Source of the DNA: an uncultured Eubacteriales bacterium
Lineage (GTDB): Bacteria; Bacillota; Clostridia; Christensenellales; Aristaeellaceae
DNA length: 59,641 nt
Assembly (NCBI GenBank): GCA_902778995.1
Contig: CACYZW010000003.1
Span: 1 to 59,641 of the forward strand
Reading direction: 5' to 3'
Positions 31,798 to 42,357 of the stretch are shown here, piece after piece; the first letter of the stretch is position 1, and every line of letters starts with the position of its first letter. A model generated the notes under the pieces. The model was given only the letters and a program-made list of their open reading frames with translations. It searched no databases and had not been told where the DNA came from. The position numbers were made by a program, and so were the translations under genes.

Positions 31798-32400
31798 ATG
31801 ATCTACACGGAAAGCTACGGCTACATGCCCGAATTGAATACCCCCCGGCTGCGGCTGCGCAGGCTGACCATGCGCGACGCCGGGGACATATACCGGTACA
31901 GCCGCGACACAGAGGTGGCCCGCCATGTGCTGTGGGACGCACACCGATCCGTATCCGACAGCCGCGCCTATCTGCGCTTTATGCTCCGCCGATATCGCAA
32001 TCACGAGCCGGCGAGCTGGGGCATCGAATGGAAGCAGACTGGGGAAATCATCGGCACCATCGGCTTCATGTGGATACAGTCGGACAACGCCGCCGCCGAG
32101 GTGGGCTATTCCCTGTCCCGGGACTATTGGAACCGGGGCATCATGACGGAGGCGCTGCGGGCCGTGATCGGCCACGGCTTCGGCAGCATGAACCTGAACC
32201 GCATTGAAGCCCAGCACGAAACGGGCAACCCTGCCTCCGGCGCGGTGATGCGCAAGTGCGGCATGCAGCGGGAGGGTACGCTGCGCCAGCGCCTGTACAA
32301 CAAGGGCCGCTATGTGGACGTGGAGCTGTACGCCATATTGCGCATGGAATACGACAGCCGGAATAAAAGGACGCCATCGCGACGCCCCACGGGGCTGTGA
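31798..32400 (+). CDS. GNAT N-acetyltransferase, RimJ/RimL type
   Basis: About 200 residues: LNTPRLRLRRLTMRDAGDIY start, IIGTIGFMWI central strand, VGYSLSRDYWNRGIMTEALRAVI (acetyl-CoA pyrophosphate loop) and HETGNPASGAVMRKCGMQREG. This is the pattern of ribosomal-protein or small-molecule acetyltransferases. Start ATG 31798 is chosen because homologues begin close to it; in-frame ATGs at 31777 and 31660 lack binding sites. Substrate unknown. Confidence 0.88.
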   Translation: MIYTESYGYMPELNTPRLRLRRLTMRDAGDIYRYSRDTEVARHVLWDAHRSVSDSRAYLRFMLRRYRNHEPASWGIEWKQTGEIIGTIGFMWIQSDNAAAEVGYSLSRDYWNRGIMTEALRAVIGHGFGSMNLNRIEAQHETGNPASGAVMRKCGMQREGTLRQRLYNKGRYVDVELYAILRMEYDSRNKRTPSRRPTGL

Positions 32401-32478
32401 CGCTTCTGTGACGCTGGATGTGGCATTATTTTTTCAGCAGAAGGCGACCATCGTGTTTCCCGCAAAGGAGGAATGGAC

Positions 32479-32763
32479 ATGACAGAGTTTGTTGAACTGA
32501 ATCTGGATGAGATGGCAAACGTGACCGGCGGACGCCTCGTGACAATCAACACTGGCACGGACCAAAACGCCGCCATACGCAATGCCCCCGGCAATGGCGA
32601 TATCATCGCATCGCTGAAGAACGACACCATCGTCGATACCGTGGGTACCCCCGTTTACGATTCAGGGACCGACAGGAACTGGATCAGGGTCAAGTTCAAG
32701 AAAAAGGGCAAGACCAGGACCGGCTGGGTCGCGGCATCCATCGTCGGCCTGAAGCGGAAATAG
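32479..32763 (+). CDS. Double-glycine leader fused to an SH3b domain
   Basis: A 94-residue protein. Residues 1-18 (TEFVELNLDEMANVTGG) have the L-x-L-D-E-x-x-x-V-x-G-G pattern of bacteriocin-type leaders cut by C39 peptidase exporters. The rest is one bacterial SH3 domain: AAIRNAPGNGDIIASLK, then RNWIRVKFKKKGKTRTGWV. The start at 32479 is chosen because AAAGGAGG is 7 nt upstream; the ATG at 32473 is too close. No Sec signal, no modification enzyme and no C39 exporter are seen nearby. The cargo is a folded wall- or ligand-binding type domain rather than a typical bacteriocin. Three hairpins follow the stop codon. Confidence 0.8.
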   Translation: MTEFVELNLDEMANVTGGRLVTINTGTDQNAAIRNAPGNGDIIASLKNDTIVDTVGTPVYDSGTDRNWIRVKFKKKGKTRTGWVAASIVGLKRK

Positions 32764-33007: not shown

Positions 33008-33040
33008 GGGGCTGCAGCGTGAAATCACGCCGCGGCCCCC
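33007..33040 (+). terminator. Hairpin with T-run, second copy of the 32775 hairpin
   Basis: Stem GGGGGC...GCCCCC around GCGTGAAATCACGC, followed on the plus strand by TGCTTTTTTTT. It includes the last codons of the mscS gene on the other strand, so it can end plus-strand transcripts just before antisense readthrough. Confidence 0.75.
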
Positions 33041-33897
33041 TGCTTTTTTTTGTTTCCCTCGGATACGACCACGTTCACATAGCTATACGGAATCTCGATG
33101 CCCGCGGCTTCAAGCGCACGCTTGACGCGGGTATTGATGTCGCTCTTGACCGCCTCGGTGGAATTGGCGGCGGTATAGTAGACCGTGGTGGCCAGCACAA
33201 GGCTGCTGGCGGCATATTCCAGGAAGTAGACCGGCGCATAGCCGACGCCGCCCGGGCCGGGCTTTCCGGGCACGGCGCAGGGGCTTTCCTCCACCGCGCG
33301 TCGGATGATGGCGCAGGCCTCGTCCACATCTGTGCGATAGGCCACGTTGAATTGTAAGAAGATGGATCGAAGCCCGCTCTGGCGGCTCATGTTTCGAAGG
33401 CGCATGCCGTTGAGCTTGCTGTTTGGAATGACGAGCTCCATGGTGTCCGGGCCCTGGAGCACCACATGGCGCATCGTGATATCCTTGACAATGCCAGAAG
33501 TACCGTCCTCCAGCTCGATGCGCTCGCCCAGGTTGAAGGGTCTCGTGGCGCTCATCATCAGCCCGCAGATCAGGTCGGCGATCACCGGCTGGGCGGCAAA
33601 GCCGGCGATGGCCGCGATGACCGTCGTGCCCTGGAACAGCACCTGGCCAAAGGGGCGGGTGATCGGAGAGCTCAGCACCACCCACTGAACCGCCAGAAGG
33701 ATCAGCACAAAGCGGGATATGCGCTCCACAAACCGCAGGTTGATGTTCTTCTTGTCGTACAAAAATTTCCTGGCGGCCTTCTTCTCCAGTTTAAGCACGA
33801 CCACCAGCACGATAATGGTGCCCGTAGCCGTTATCGCGAGCTTCAACCACTCCCCAAGGGTGGGGTGTGTTTCAAAAAAATGTATGACCTCGTTCAT
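33025..33897 (-). CDS. Small-conductance mechanosensitive channel (MscS family)
   Basis: A 290-residue channel that vents solutes on osmotic downshock. It has three N-terminal helices, the pore helix with IAAIAGFAAQPVIADLICGLMM, then the beta domain (FNLGERIELEDGTSGIVKDITMRHV) and the alpha/beta C-terminal vestibule. The start at 33897 has AGAGGA upstream. Minus-strand neighbour of the stress-signalling genes upstream (34011-37205), but 113 bp separate them. Confidence 0.9.
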   Translation of the reverse strand: MNEVIHFFETHPTLGEWLKLAITATGTIIVLVVVLKLEKKAARKFLYDKKNINLRFVERISRFVLILLAVQWVVLSSPITRPFGQVLFQGTTVIAAIAGFAAQPVIADLICGLMMSATRPFNLGERIELEDGTSGIVKDITMRHVVLQGPDTMELVIPNSKLNGMRLRNMSRQSGLRSIFLQFNVAYRTDVDEACAIIRRAVEESPCAVPGKPGPGGVGYAPVYFLEYAASSLVLATTVYYTAANSTEAVKSDINTRVKRALEAAGIEIPYSYVNVVVSEGNKKKQGAAA

Positions 33898-37440: not shown

Positions 37441-38136
37441 GTGTCCAACAAACCCCTCGTGCTTTGTATAGACGATGAACAGAACATACTGGAACTGCTT
37501 TCATTCAATCTGGAGGCATCCGGATATGACACGGTAACAGCGACCAGCGGAACAGCGGGATTGGAACAGGCCGTCAGCAAATCCCCCGCCCTCATTCTTC
37601 TTGACCTGATGCTGCCGGATATGGACGGCACGGAGGTATGCCGCCAGCTCAAGGCGGGCCCCACCACGGCTTCCATTCCCATCATCATGCTCACGGCCAA
37701 GGATTCAGAGGTAGACAAAATTCTTGGACTCGAGTTGGGCGCCGACGATTACATCACCAAACCCTTCTCCGTGCGCGAGCTGATTGCCCGCGTCAAGGCG
37801 CTGTTGCGCCGCGCCACCCCTGCGGGCAGCGGCTCCGGCCTGATCAAGATCGGCAGCCTGACCATCGATCCTGAAAACTATGAAGCCTTCCGCAACGGGG
37901 AAAAGCTTCAGCTCACGTTGAAGGAATTTGAGCTGCTCAAGCAGCTGGCATCCACGCCCGGCAAGGTGCTGACCCGCGATTTCCTGCTGGATCACATCTG
38001 GGGCTATGAGTTCTACGGCGAGACCCGCACGGTTGACGTTCACATCCGCCACATTCGCCAGAAGCTGGGCGACGATCAGTACATGATCGAAACCGTGCGC
38101 GGCGTCGGCTACAAGATGACCGCCGGCAACAACTGA
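37441..38136 (+). CDS. OmpR/PhoB-family response regulator (orphan, GTG start)
   Basis: A 231-residue regulator. Receiver domain 1-120 with DDE (acid pocket), LLDLMLPDMDG (phospho-acceptor aspartate) and ADDYITKPFSVREL; winged-helix domain with RTVDVHIRHIRQKLGDDQYMIETVRGVGYKM. Start GTG with AAGGAGG upstream. No histidine kinase is adjacent; a terminator and repeats follow. The divergent partner-switching operon and the SH3b genes downstream are candidate targets, by position only. Confidence 0.93.
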   Translation: MSNKPLVLCIDDEQNILELLSFNLEASGYDTVTATSGTAGLEQAVSKSPALILLDLMLPDMDGTEVCRQLKAGPTTASIPIIMLTAKDSEVDKILGLELGADDYITKPFSVRELIARVKALLRRATPAGSGSGLIKIGSLTIDPENYEAFRNGEKLQLTLKEFELLKQLASTPGKVLTRDFLLDHIWGYEFYGETRTVDVHIRHIRQKLGDDQYMIETVRGVGYKMTAGNN

Positions 38137-38570: not shown

Positions 38571-39185
38571 TCAAACGCCATAGAGGACAGCCCACATGGC
38601 ATCGTTGAGCTCCACGAACATCGAGGAAACCCACAGCTTCTTGCCGTCCTTGCAAACTTCGATCCAGGCGACGCCACGATTGTCATAGCCGTAGCGACCG
38701 GTCATCTTCAGCTTGTCGCACTTCTCGACAACGCCCTGGCTCTTGAACTTCAGGCCGGGGTTCTTGCGCAGGTTGGTGTGAGCAATGACCTTGATCTTGC
38801 CATGGAACACGCTCTTGTCGCAGTCGATGGTGCTCTTGCGGCAGGTGGACATGCCCTTGCCGCCCTTGGTCCAAACGACCAGGACGGGGCCTTCGAGCTT
38901 GTACACCTTCAGATTGCACTTCTTGAACCAGCAATAGGTGTCGTCTGCCACGTTCACGAGAACCTTGGCGTAATCGCCGCAAACCTTCACGCAGTAGCCC
39001 ACGGAATCCTTGCTGGCGACGCTCTCAGTCTTCTTGCTGGACTTGGGGGCAGTGTAGGCATTGGAATCCTTGGTCAGATACACGTAACGGTTTACCAGAT
39101 GGGACTCGGCCAGCGCCGCGCCCGCAAACGCCAGTACCATCGTCAGCACCAGAAGCGCTGCGACAATCTTCTTCATGTTCTTCAT
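38571..39185 (-). CDS. Secreted two-SH3b protein, paralogue 1
   Basis: A 204-residue protein with a Sec signal peptide (MKNMKKIVAALLVLTMVLA, cut after ALA). The first SH3b-like domain is at about 27-95 (DSNAYTAPKSSKKTESVA ... WFKKCNLKVY), then a GGKGMSTC linker, then a second SH3b at about 130-195 (HTNLRKNPGLKFKSQGVV ... KKLWVSSMFVEL). The mature protein has eight cysteines. Such domains bind peptidoglycan or wall peptides in many secreted proteins. Binding site AGGAGGGAAAACA. It has its own promoter. No catalytic domain is attached. Confidence 0.82.
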   Translation of the reverse strand: MKNMKKIVAALLVLTMVLAFAGAALAESHLVNRYVYLTKDSNAYTAPKSSKKTESVASKDSVGYCVKVCGDYAKVLVNVADDTYCWFKKCNLKVYKLEGPVLVVWTKGGKGMSTCRKSTIDCDKSVFHGKIKVIAHTNLRKNPGLKFKSQGVVEKCDKLKMTGRYGYDNRGVAWIEVCKDGKKLWVSSMFVELNDAMWAVLYGV

Positions 39186-39342
39186 TGTTTTCCCTCCTAA
39201 TGCACTTGCAACAGTTTGACAATAATTCCTTTCGCAGGGACGCGCCTGCAAATCCGCGGTCTGCAAGCGTTTCCGGGCGAAGAATTACTACAGATGATCC
39301 GGTCGCCGACAAAGCGGCGTCCAAGCCATCCGTCGCATGATA

Positions 39343-39372
39343 ATATTACCATGTTTTACCATTATTTGTCAA
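39343..39372 (-). promoter_or_regulatory. Promoter of SH3b paralogue 1
   Basis: Minus strand: TTGACA (39367-39372), 18-bp spacer, TAATAT (39343-39348), giving a leader of about 150 nt. Confidence 0.75.
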
Positions 39373-39441
39373 TCGTAACACACCGTTGAAACGAGGCAAA
39401 AATATACAAAATGTTCAGCATTTTTTGTCATTGTGATAACA

Positions 39442-39634
39442 TAAAACCCCTGACGATATGATCGTCAGGGATTTGCCGCGTACTCCACGCATGCAGGCAA
39501 CGCGCCATCGGCAGTCCGCGGAACCGCGACTGTGTGCCCGTATACGTCCGCGAGCCGCTCCAAATGCCCGTCCGCGGCAGGCATTTGAAGCGCTCGCGGA
39601 CTGGAGCCCTTGCGGATTCAGCTCCGACATGGCG
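39442..39634. repeat. Interspersed repeat family C, copy C2
   Basis: Second copy of the 38341-38533 repeat, past the 3' end of SH3b paralogue 2. Its first hairpin has a changed outer end (TCGTCAGGGATTTG), so the stem is shortened. Confidence 0.85.
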
Positions 39635-39689
39635 ATCTACCCGAAGGCTTCGTCATGGCAGGGGTTCAACGTTTCCTGAAATCAAATGA

Positions 39690-40316
39690 TCAATCCACAG
39701 GAACATATTTCGGGACATAGTACAGGAAAGCATCCTGTTCTTTGGTGAGCTTCACAAACGCACTGGAAACCCACAGCTTCTTGCCCTTTACGCAAACTTC
39801 CAGCCAGGCAACGGGACGATTGTCAAAGCCATAGCGGCCGGTCAGCTTCAGCCTGTCGCACTTCTCCACGACGCCCTGGCTCTTGAACCTCATGCCGGGG
39901 TTCTTGCGCAGGTTGGTGTGGCCGGTGACCTTGATCTTGCCGTGGAACAGCGCCTTGTTGGTGTCGATGGTGTTCTTCAGGCACCTGGACATGCCCTTGC
40001 CGCCCTTGGCCCAGACAAACAGGATTTGGTCGTAGTCGATCACTTCCAGATCGCACTTCTTGAACCAAGTATAGGTGCCGTCACCCATGTTTACGATGAC
40101 CTTGGCAAACTTGCCGCAGGTATCCACGCAGTAGCCGTGAGAACCTTCCTTGGCCACGCTGGCGGTCTTCTTGCTGGACTTGGGTCCGGTGTAAGCGTTG
40201 GAATCATCGGTCAGGACAACGTAATTGCCCTCCAGCCTGGAAGCAGCCATTGCGGCAGTTCCAGCCAGCGCCATGACCATGGTAAGCACCAAGAGCATTG
40301 CAACAAACTTCTTCAT
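39690..40316 (-). CDS. Secreted two-SH3b protein, paralogue 2
   Basis: A 208-residue close paralogue of the 38571-39185 product, colinear through the whole chain: signal peptide MKKFVAMLLVLTMVMALAG, first domain with DSNAYTGPKSSKKTASVA and WFKKCDLEVI, second with HTNLRKNPGMRFKSQGVV and KKLWVSSAFVKL. It has six mature cysteines, at the positions shared with paralogue 1. The C-terminus is extended (YYVPKYVPVD). Binding site AGGAGGGAAATATCA. The duplication includes the leader and the 3' repeat C. Confidence 0.82.
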   Translation of the reverse strand: MKKFVAMLLVLTMVMALAGTAAMAASRLEGNYVVLTDDSNAYTGPKSSKKTASVAKEGSHGYCVDTCGKFAKVIVNMGDGTYTWFKKCDLEVIDYDQILFVWAKGGKGMSRCLKNTIDTNKALFHGKIKVTGHTNLRKNPGMRFKSQGVVEKCDRLKLTGRYGFDNRPVAWLEVCVKGKKLWVSSAFVKLTKEQDAFLYYVPKYVPVD

Positions 40317-40477
40317 TGATATTTCCCTCCTAAAGAATGATTCAATGAGATGTATATTCGTTCGCACGAAGCCGCGCCGGCGATTCCGCGGTCTGCCAAC
40401 GCAGCCCCGTGCGGGAACGACACTCTGTCAAAGGCGTTGCGCAGGAAAAGGGCGCAACCAATCTTCAACTTGGCTTA

Positions 40478-40506
40478 ATTGTATCACAATATATGACCAT
40501 TGTCAA
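40478..40506 (-). promoter_or_regulatory. Promoter of SH3b paralogue 2
   Basis: Minus strand: TTGACA (40501-40506), 17-bp spacer, TACAAT (40478-40483). Confidence 0.85.
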
Positions 40507-40697
40507 TATCTTTTGTCATAAAATATTCATTATTTTTGACGACAAAAGCCATATTCTGTGGTATGAAGATATATCCATCACTTCGGGCTTCTCCCGAAGC
40601 GTCAGGCATGCGCCAAATCGCGGAGCAAAACGCCAATGCCTCGACACATGCCAGAAACCACACTGCTCAGCCCAAAATGCTGCCCCTGTGACCAAAG

Positions 40698-40724
40698 ATG
40701 CGGCGCGAACAGATCGCGCCGCAT
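40698..40724 (-). terminator. Terminator of SH3b paralogue 3
   Basis: ATGCGGCGCG / CGCGCCGCAT perfect stem with a 7-nt loop, 20 bp after the stop, followed on the minus strand by CTTTGG. Confidence 0.7.
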
Positions 40725-40744
40725 ACGCCGGTCATCTGGCACTA

Positions 40745-41395
40745 TCACTTCACCAGCTTGGAATACTCAGAGGAGACCCACAGGCACTTGCCCTTGTACT
40801 TCACGCCGTAGAAGATCACGAAGCGGGAATCATATCCGTATACGCGGCGATACTTCACCTTATCGTTCTTGTGCAGCGCAACGCCATAGTTCTTCTTCAG
40901 GCTGGATTCCTTGTGCAGCCAAACCTTGGAAGTGGCCTTCACATGCTTGTAGCAATCGGGGCTGATGCGAACGTGAAACTCATCCAACTCGTCGTCGGCA
41001 TCGTCGTCCTTCATGATCAACAGCTCGCTGGACATGCCGACGCCGCCGTTGGAATAGACGACGTAGATGGGGAAGTAGATGTCATTGCCCATATCCTTCC
41101 AATCTTTGTCGACCTTCAGGTTGTCGGTCTTGAACCAGCGGGTGATGCTGTCGTCCAGAATGTCCAGATACAGCTCGACCCAGTCGCCGCACACGCGCTT
41201 CACCAGCGCGTAGGAGCCCTTGCGCACGATCGTTTCGGTGGGCTTGCCGCCCTTGTGCTTGTAGGCGACGGTGTTCTTGGTGAACTTCACGCAGTCACCG
41301 ACCTTGATCTTGCAGGCAGCCATGGCGGAACCCGCCAGCGCGAGCACCATCGTCAGCACCAGCAGCGCCGCAACCAGTTTCTTCATGTTCTTCAT
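40745..41395 (-). CDS. Secreted two-SH3b protein, paralogue 3
   Basis: A 216-residue protein with signal peptide MKNMKKLVAALLVLTMVLALAG, close in wording to paralogue 1, but a more diverged mature part. First domain: FTKNTVAYKHKGGKPTETIV ... DDSITRWFKTDNLKV. Then an acidic insert (KDDDADDELDEFHV), then a second domain: TSKVWLHKESSLKKNYGVAL ... KGKCLWVSSEYSKLVK. It pairs best with paralogue 4. Binding site GAGGAGGGAGAACC. Confidence 0.8.
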   Translation of the reverse strand: MKNMKKLVAALLVLTMVLALAGSAMAACKIKVGDCVKFTKNTVAYKHKGGKPTETIVRKGSYALVKRVCGDWVELYLDILDDSITRWFKTDNLKVDKDWKDMGNDIYFPIYVVYSNGGVGMSSELLIMKDDDADDELDEFHVRISPDCYKHVKATSKVWLHKESSLKKNYGVALHKNDKVKYRRVYGYDSRFVIFYGVKYKGKCLWVSSEYSKLVK

Positions 41396-41536
41396 CGGTT
41401 CTCCCTCCTCGGAAATGCTCTCCTCCGAATTCTTCCTTCCACCGGCTGCTTCCGCCGCTCCGCGATGTGCGCAGGCAACCGATGACGTACGACGCTGCTT
41501 CCCAACCATTTGCATGGTTCGACCAGCGTTTGCCAG

Positions 41537-41565
41537 ATTATAACATTTTTCTATTCTTTAGTCAA
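41537..41565 (-). promoter_or_regulatory. Promoter of SH3b paralogue 3
   Basis: Minus strand: TTGACT (41560-41565), 17-bp spacer, TATAAT (41537-41542). Confidence 0.85.
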
Positions 41566-41637
41566 CCGCCTGGAGGGTTAATATTTTTTGCGCATTTCCC
41601 GCCGTCCTGCCTCCCTTTGGTCTTCATGCAATATACA

Positions 41638-41665
41638 AGTGGCGGGGAAGCTATTCCCCGCCACT
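41638..41665 (-). terminator. Terminator of SH3b paralogue 4
   Basis: AGTGGCGGGGAA / TTCCCCGCCACT perfect 12-bp stem, 29 bp after the stop, followed on the minus strand by TGTATATT. Confidence 0.75.
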
Positions 41666-41694
41666 GGCTTTTCGTGGGTATAGGTTGCCGGACG

Positions 41695-42357
41695 TTATTT
41701 GACCAGCTTGGTGTACTGCGCGGAAACCCACAGGCACTTGCCCCTGTAGCGAATGCCGTAGAAGGGCACGAGCCGATCGTCCAGCGCCCACTTGCGGCGA
41801 TAGGACACCTTGTCGTTCTTGCGCAGCGCGGTCTTGTACTGCCGGTTCAGGCTGGGCTCCTTGTGCATCCAGACGTTGCCGGTGGCCTTCACACGCTTGT
41901 AGCAGTTTTCGCTGATGCGGTAGCCGCCATCGTCAAACCATTTGCCGGAATCGTTGTAGGGGCCCATGTAAGTGTCGGATCCGTTTTCGCCGCCCTTGGC
42001 GTAGCAGACGAACACGTAGACCTCCCACGATCTGCTGCCGGCTTCAATCTCCACCACCTTGCAGGTCTTCTTCAGGTTGGATGTTTTGAACCAGGCGGTC
42101 TTGCTCTCGTCCCCGGCGTTCAAATACAGCTCCACCCAGTTGTCCCCGTAGGTGCGCCTGACCACGGCGATGGAGCCCTTCCGCACAACGGTATCGCTCT
42201 TTTCGCAGTTGTAATGGTCGAAGTAGGCGGCGGCGTTCCGCTTGAATTCGACCCGCGTGCCCTTGCTGAACTGGCAGGACGCCAGGGCCGCGCCGTTCAG
42301 CGCCAGGGCCAGCGCCAGCACCAGCAGCGCCGCAATCAGTTTCTTCATGTCCTTCAT
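41695..42357 (-). CDS. Secreted two-SH3b protein, paralogue 4 (possible lipoprotein)
   Basis: A 220-residue relative of paralogue 3: first domain with ADTVVRKG-like KSDTVVRKGSIAVVRR ... SKTAWFKTSNLKK, second with TGNVWMHKEPSLNRQYKTAL ... GKCLWVSAQYTKLVK. The signal peptide ends LASC, which fits a lipobox, so this member might be lipid-anchored, while the others look freely secreted. Binding site AAGGAGGGG. Confidence 0.8.
   Translation of the reverse strand: MKDMKKLIAALLVLALALALNGAALASCQFSKGTRVEFKRNAAAYFDHYNCEKSDTVVRKGSIAVVRRTYGDNWVELYLNAGDESKTAWFKTSNLKKTCKVVEIEAGSRSWEVYVFVCYAKGGENGSDTYMGPYNDSGKWFDDGGYRISENCYKRVKATGNVWMHKEPSLNRQYKTALRKNDKVSYRRKWALDDRLVPFYGIRYRGKCLWVSAQYTKLVK

Follow-up and report, generated by a model that had tools for sequence, protein, structure and literature searches.

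Double-glycine (GG) leaders are usually taken as marks of bacteriocins or pheromones, and genes that carry them therefore tend to be filed as antimicrobials. The gene described here lies in a stretch of 59,641 nucleotides from an uncultured Eubacteriales bacterium (the whole stretch analysed is called the window) and joins a GG leader to a bacterial SH3 (SH3b) domain. The nearest tested precedent found is EbfG1-4 of Synechococcus elongatus, four small GG-leader proteins that, in the available part of the source, are secreted with the help of the C39-peptidase transporter PteB and act in biofilm formation (PMC4997328). The combination of small GG-leader proteins with a C39 transporter is common to both cases, whereas the mature EbfG proteins are described there as carrying no domain of known function and the present system has an SH3b cargo, a Clostridia-type host and an NHLP exporter pair. 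The NHLP/NHLM export cluster consists of three genes, encoding a C39 ABC protein, an ABC protein without C39 and an HlyD protein (PMC3140520). As far as the available part of that source goes, its known cargo comprises NHLP and N11P type precursors, whereas for the window protein none of the NHLP and Nif11 leader models gives a match (at E 10, NCBIfam lists TIGR03949 alone). Class II bacteriocins share with the window protein a leader of the ELxxxxMxxVxGG type and weak profile matches (Bacteriocin_IIc and TIGR03949), but both profiles stay under their cut-offs, the cargo here is a folded SH3b domain and no immunity gene was seen. SH3 domains of autolysins, endolysins and enterotoxin-like proteins (PDB 2krs, 2kt8 and 4krt) are similar in fold and profile; by their PDB titles these entries represent portions or fragments taken from larger proteins, whereas here the domain stands alone behind the GG leader. 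The kind of export is already known, and what appears to be new is the SH3b cargo, the multi-copy family and an operator common with Sec-type proteins. In the open-access literature no report was found of GG leaders on SH3 domains, nor of such a family and operator, the latter having been looked for only as the operator of WalR.

The features of the locus are listed in the table. The full reading frame translates into MDMTEFVELNLDEMANVTGG followed by the 76-residue domain. The Shine-Dalgarno sequence AAAGGAGG is spaced 1 nt from the first ATG (32473) and 7 nt from the second (32479), and the 7-nt spacing makes a protein of 94 residues the likely product. Leader cleavage is predicted after position 32532. 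Taken singly, the profile scores of the window protein make a weak case: SH3_3 (Pfam) matches residues 33-89 with E 2e-4 and 21.8 bits, under the cut-off of 27; the Bacteriocin_IIc leader model (Pfam PF10439) matches residues 3-24 with E 0.015 and 15.7 bits (cut-off 27.1); and the cerein-7B leader model (NCBIfam TIGR03949) gives E 0.029 and 14.2 bits (cut-off 21.5). Comparison with paralogues and homologues turns these matches into a strong case. An AlphaFold2 model built from 5 sequences has a mean pLDDT of 76. Its residues 1-16 fall below pLDDT 50, its first strand begins at residue 19, immediately after the GG, and the leader sits, at low confidence, outside the barrel. The window protein has an SH3b fold. 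Among the nearest folds are the SH3b domains of an endolysin, of NlpC-type enzymes and of a C. perfringens protein, although Foldseek returned no match at E <= 0.001 (best E 0.01). The model and the alignment of homologues rule out that the leader is a piece of a longer conserved intracellular domain, the finding that would have spoken against the preliminary description. No RNA family was found close to the GG-SH3b gene. A mobile or phage origin was rejected on a tblastn search that gave no match among plasmids or phages.

Table. Features of the GG-SH3b locus and of related loci; positions without a locus label are those of the window.
Feature	Position	Strand	Remarks
Acetyltransferase-like gene	31798..32400	+	Function by eye; stop overlaps the proposed operator; outside the system
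Direct repeat TGTGACG-CTTC-TGTGACG (TGTGAC-N5-TGTGAC), proposed operator	32396..32413	+	
-10-like hexamer CATTAT	32424..32429	+	11 bp behind the second half-site
Shine-Dalgarno sequence AAAGGAGG	32464..32471	+	Read from the sequence
GG-SH3b reading frame	32473..32763	+	96 aa from the first ATG; likely start 32479
Double-glycine leader MTEFVELNLDEMANVTGG, 18 residues	32479..32532	+	GG leader in 24/24 mature-domain homologues; model residues 1-16 of low confidence
Mature SH3b domain, 76 aa	32533..32760	+	
MscS-like gene, convergent	33025..33897	-	Function by eye; 65-68% identity in relatives
Sec-type protein, C-terminal SH3b	38571..39185	-	SH3_3 29.1 bits, over cut-off; A2 profile E 8e-10
Sec-type protein, SH3b-like end	39690..40316	-	SH3_3 23.5 bits, under cut-off; A2 E 1e-9
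Sec-type protein, SH3b-like end	40745..41395	-	A2 E 4e-7; no Pfam match at E 1e-3; signal peptide by eye
Sec-type protein, SH3b-like end	41695..42357	-	A2 E 1e-9; no Pfam match at E 1e-3
VHDLKNFVTARVSVPKGTYLVMQ-type GG protein	L158:7639-7932, L141:5448-5741, L051:7618-7932, L231, L260		

Two GG-SH3b paralogues are encoded in the same genome, on contigs C15 and C97, and score 33.6 and 45.4 bits against SH3_3, both over the cut-off of 27. Fusions of this kind, which the preliminary description had proposed to seek in related genomes, were found when 300 genomes of the family were searched with the mature domain alone, a query chosen to avoid selecting for the leader: it gave 24 matches in 22 genomes, the window gene among them. 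An in-frame GG leader precedes the domain in all 24, so the GG of the window gene is not a chance occurrence in an SH3 protein, and the union of leader and SH3b domain reported earlier is real. Two of the 24 carry a linker of roughly 110 residues between leader and domain. Moreover, the seven short GG-SH3b proteins among ten proteins scanned all exceed the SH3_3 cut-off, and four loci on public contigs (L005-L008) have both the leader and the domain in common with the window gene. These contigs come from an uncultured Clostridiales bacterium (RUG340 and RUG677; RUG presumably denotes a rumen genome set), Christensenella sp. UBA2853 and a Clostridia bacterium from goat jejunum. In an alignment of 40 rows the two glycines are the only invariant positions, which is not independent evidence because most rows were picked with the GG pattern; the SH3b domain is conserved along its whole length. 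The pN/pS ratio was 0.12-0.36 for the whole gene (10 pairs from 5 orthologues) and 0.11-0.45 for the leader alone, and both leader and domain are under purifying selection.

The first profile, A1, matches 280 of the 300 family genomes at E 0.01, and many of the listed matches span the SH3b part alone; thus SH3b domains are common in the family and the GG-led ones form a subset. Many of the genomes carry GG-SH3b genes as tandems or as multiple copies. At E 1e-15, matches were obtained in 6 of 396 genomes of an order-level sample, all in the family of the window (one, G047, in the SH3b part only), and in 1 of 398 of a phylum-level sample, the own genome; since at most 13 candidates per genome were scored, absence beyond the family is not proof. 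An in-frame stop interrupts three of the GG-SH3b matches (G209:C24:42485, G060:C26:39046 and G060:C58:130), which suggests decay of some copies, and the leader-SH3b frame of G262 has no start codon ahead of the leader and therefore looks broken. GG leaders were also seen on larger proteins of 742 aa (L271:4236-6464, G060:C82), 201 aa (L272:2680-3285, G278:C310) and 198 aa (L257, G060:C66), which have in common a stretch of the REIVAGVTLAAMTMTGG type after the GG. The 201- and 198-aa proteins end in a window-like domain (tblastn; A5 profile); the 201-aa protein, with its GG-linker-SH3b arrangement, has no Pfam SH3 match, and the 742-aa protein no Pfam match at E 1e-3.

A C39 exporter elsewhere in the genome, on which the earlier proposal of a non-Sec route depended, was looked for, and two NHLP-type pairs were found. 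The genome, 83% complete, contains two C39 domains (PF03412, 126 and 124 bits), on contigs C26 and C108 and on no other, so that no exporter adjoins the window gene; by eye, the gene lists show none alongside either paralogue. Both C39 proteins match the NHLP ABC1 model (TIGR03796, 906 and 938 bits, cut-off 853) and are adjoined by an ABC2 partner (TIGR03797, 719 and 725 bits, cut-off 709). Together with an HlyD-like gene upstream of each pair, named by eye and traced by similarity, they resemble the described three-gene cluster as far as the available part of its source goes (PMC3140520). The C39 cysteine and histidine motifs are visible by eye in both exporters, and ABC_tran matches both, a simple ABC-signature pattern one only. 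One exporter is preceded by a GG peptide (L012 10442-10624, 60 aa as called), which an in-frame ATG seen further upstream would lengthen; none was found ahead of the other. The GG pattern used to list such peptides is loose and also caught spurious frames. At L011:7401-12010 (G000:C26), a gene for a transglutaminase-domain protein (Pfam) and, by eye, DUF58- and MoxR-like genes lie ahead of the exporter.

Operons with the order GG-SH3b, HlyD, C39 ABC and ABC2 occur in three relatives, two of the same genus (G278:C259 and G086:C29) and one of another (G010:C158); ABC2 is cut by the contig end in G278 and lies in two pieces in G010. The four of five operon peptides that were scanned score 34.5-54.3 bits against SH3_3. 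Among the C39 loci of the genus, 24 of 25 were read (the upstream sequence reached 2.2 kb or more in 22 of them and was short in two), and an SH3_3-positive GG gene belongs to the operon in two of the 24. In five genus genomes a non-SH3 GG protein of about 78 mature residues (VHDLKNFVTARVSVPKGTYLVMQ) heads NHLP operons (G192, G282, G146, G108, and G086, where it occurs beside the SH3b ones). Its reading as a divergent SH3b domain was dropped (profile comparison probability 5.7%).

The distribution of exporters across genomes was also compared with that of the domain. Of the 22 genomes that have a window-type domain, 21 show a strong TIGR03796 match, over the cut-off to judge by the E-values; among all 300 genomes the number over the cut-off is 131 (Fisher 1.4e-7, with genomes treated as unrelated). 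Inside the genus the association is modest: full-length GG-SH3b matches occur in 14 of 19 genomes with C39 and in 2 of 9 without (P 0.015), the latter being G201 and G262. The non-Sec route put forward for SH3b domains is well supported, because the genome has its own C39 exporters, the exporter operons of three relatives begin with GG-SH3b genes, and an operator is common with Sec-type proteins. Taken together, the sequences argue well for C39 export of the window protein.

The proposed operator is the sole match in the window at <= 3 mismatches (shuffles gave a mean of 0.17). The same arrangement, TGTGAC-N5-TGTGAC followed after 11 bp by a -10-like hexamer, precedes all five aligned genus orthologues. 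In the own genome nine sites were found at <= 2 mismatches, against one for the reversed pattern, and three of the nine precede the three GG-SH3b genes. A genus pattern with the 11-bp spacing built in (TGTGAY-N5-TGTGAY-N11-TANNNT, <= 1 mismatch) gave 139 sites in 21 of 28 genomes and none for the reversed control; the site in the window departs from this pattern by 1 mismatch. Within 450 bp upstream and on the same strand, the operator precedes 44 of 61 full-length genus GG-SH3b genes, where about 0.02 were expected; the 61 were hand-picked among the matches listed (profile start <= 8, end >= 86) and include the three with an in-frame stop and that of G262. The products behind 105 of the 139 sites were classed by simple rules (Sec-type meaning a hydrophobic signal) without a signal-peptide predictor: 64 are Sec-type (4 with SH3b), 27 carry a GG leader (13 with SH3b) and 14 are other or none. 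Of the remaining 34 sites, 31 had been assigned to GG-SH3b genes in the upstream comparison and 3 lie at the ends of contigs; the site L174, paired with the G262 match, has no product under the class rules. Since the operator fronts both Sec-type and GG-leader proteins, one control element appears to serve two export routes.

The likeness to the WalR operator, printed as TGTWAH-N5-TGTWAH in the available part of the source (PMC9210968), lies in two hexamers, a 5-bp spacer and envelope-related genes. The half-site here is TGTGAY, which deviates at the fourth base; at the window site the 5-bp spacing fits the WalR rule, but the fourth base is G and not W. In other genera the operator was missing (<= 3 mismatches, 250 bp) at 17 of 18 GG-SH3b genes, one with 154 bp only, and it is therefore mainly a mark of the genus of the window. 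Many other-genus GG-SH3b genes have a different upstream motif by eye, TGCCAT followed by a GCGTATCAA-like stretch (L018, L019, L022 and L024-L035). In five genomes (L224, L230, L243, L247 and L254) the operator also precedes a peptide that is conserved and about 57-61 aa long, with IPCYSF or ITRYSY, then FFRRM or similar and GLSN or similar, and with neither a GG nor a clear Sec signal. At L164 (G000:C18:390) the operator is followed by a short reading frame with a GG-like stretch in another frame, which may reflect a damaged GG gene or a fault in the assembly.

The preliminary description had also placed four Sec-secreted SH3b proteins near the window gene. Four Sec-type proteins, their signals judged by eye, are indeed encoded 5.8 kb downstream (38571-42357), and all match A2, a profile of the GG-SH3b family, at E 8e-10 to 4e-7, but only one passes the SH3_3 cut-off. 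The TGTGAY operator is missing before these four genes. An OmpR/PhoB-type response regulator (Pfam Response_reg and Trans_reg_C) is encoded at 37441-38136, 4.7 kb from the GG-SH3b gene, and is a candidate reader of the operator. The convergent MscS-like neighbour is retained in 3 of 11 other loci compared (G228, G172 and G240).

In our judgement the window gene probably encodes a non-catalytic SH3b mini-protein that is exported by a C39/NHLP machinery and acts at a cell wall. An operator-controlled promoter would transcribe the gene, most likely as a single gene, and an operator of OmpR-family type would co-express it with Sec-type proteins, some bearing the same domain. The 18-residue leader would be recognised in trans by an NHLP-type C39 ABC exporter of the same genome and cut after the Gly-Gly, and the 76-residue SH3b domain would be pumped out, bypassing Sec. 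Outside, the domain would most likely attach to the cell wall, or to some other polymer of the envelope, and bind there without catalysis; it is the fold that suggests wall binding.

Three other functions and one other location of the protein were considered. The exported SH3b domain might serve as a signal, either a pheromone that neighbours sense or a matrix factor required for adhesion. This reading would fit the part played by EbfG1-4 in Synechococcus biofilm formation, as given in the available part of PMC4997328, and the multi-copy, operator-controlled genes; with no receptor or adjacent sensor identified, and a fold that argues for binding of envelope polymers, we regard it as unlikely. 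Quite doubtful is a bacteriocin that leaves the cell by C39 export and whose SH3b domain targets the walls of rivals, so that these are inhibited or lysed. The leader does resemble those of class II bacteriocins, and family members are tandem or multi-copy in many genomes, but the folded SH3b cargo has no part that is catalytic or acts on membranes, inspection by eye of the window and of L005-L008 showed no small immunity-like gene next to it, and the operator is common mostly to Sec-type proteins. Nothing beyond the leader speaks for bacteriocin activity itself. The new class of wall-targeting peptide suggested earlier finds no support in the bacteriocin sense: the cargo is a folded domain, and by eye no immunity-like or modifying gene was noticed beside the gene in the listed loci.

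It is very improbable that the protein is a cytosolic SH3-like protein with the GG pattern as a structural remnant. The exporter is not adjacent to the window gene, and two genomes carry the gene without an exporter match: G201 (88% complete) has a GG-SH3b gene with an intact leader and no C39 domain found, and G125 has a window-type domain and no exporter match listed. Against this stand the leader kept in every homologue, its low-confidence position outside the barrel, the operons with C39 exporters in relatives and the operator common with secreted-type proteins. Least credible of all is a RiPP precursor with SH3b as a scaffold or as a core modified before NHLP export: NHLP exporters are linked to bacteriocin-type natural products in the available part of PMC3140520 and one of the two exporters of this genome has a gene for a transglutaminase-domain protein upstream, but no lanthionine-type or other peptide-modifying enzyme was found near the own exporters (ten proteins against Pfam, ten against NCBIfam), and conservation extends over the whole domain.

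For the exported wall-acting mini-protein that we favour, a wider and more tentative possibility, to which we would not yet commit, is that this lineage turned the GG/C39/NHLP route into a general secretion of small folded domains, chiefly SH3b, parallel to Sec and under one dedicated operator. The SH3b mini-proteins, up to about seven per genome, might then make up a secreted set that coats or senses the wall. The operator offers a direct way of cataloguing the secreted set in full and of tracing the regulator behind it. Here the cargo of a GG leader is a folded binding domain, encoded several times per genome and under an operator common with Sec-type proteins. If the export is true, many predicted bacteriocins of uncultured gut Clostridia would need another name, and the C39/NHLP exporters of these bacteria would be part of their normal envelope biology.
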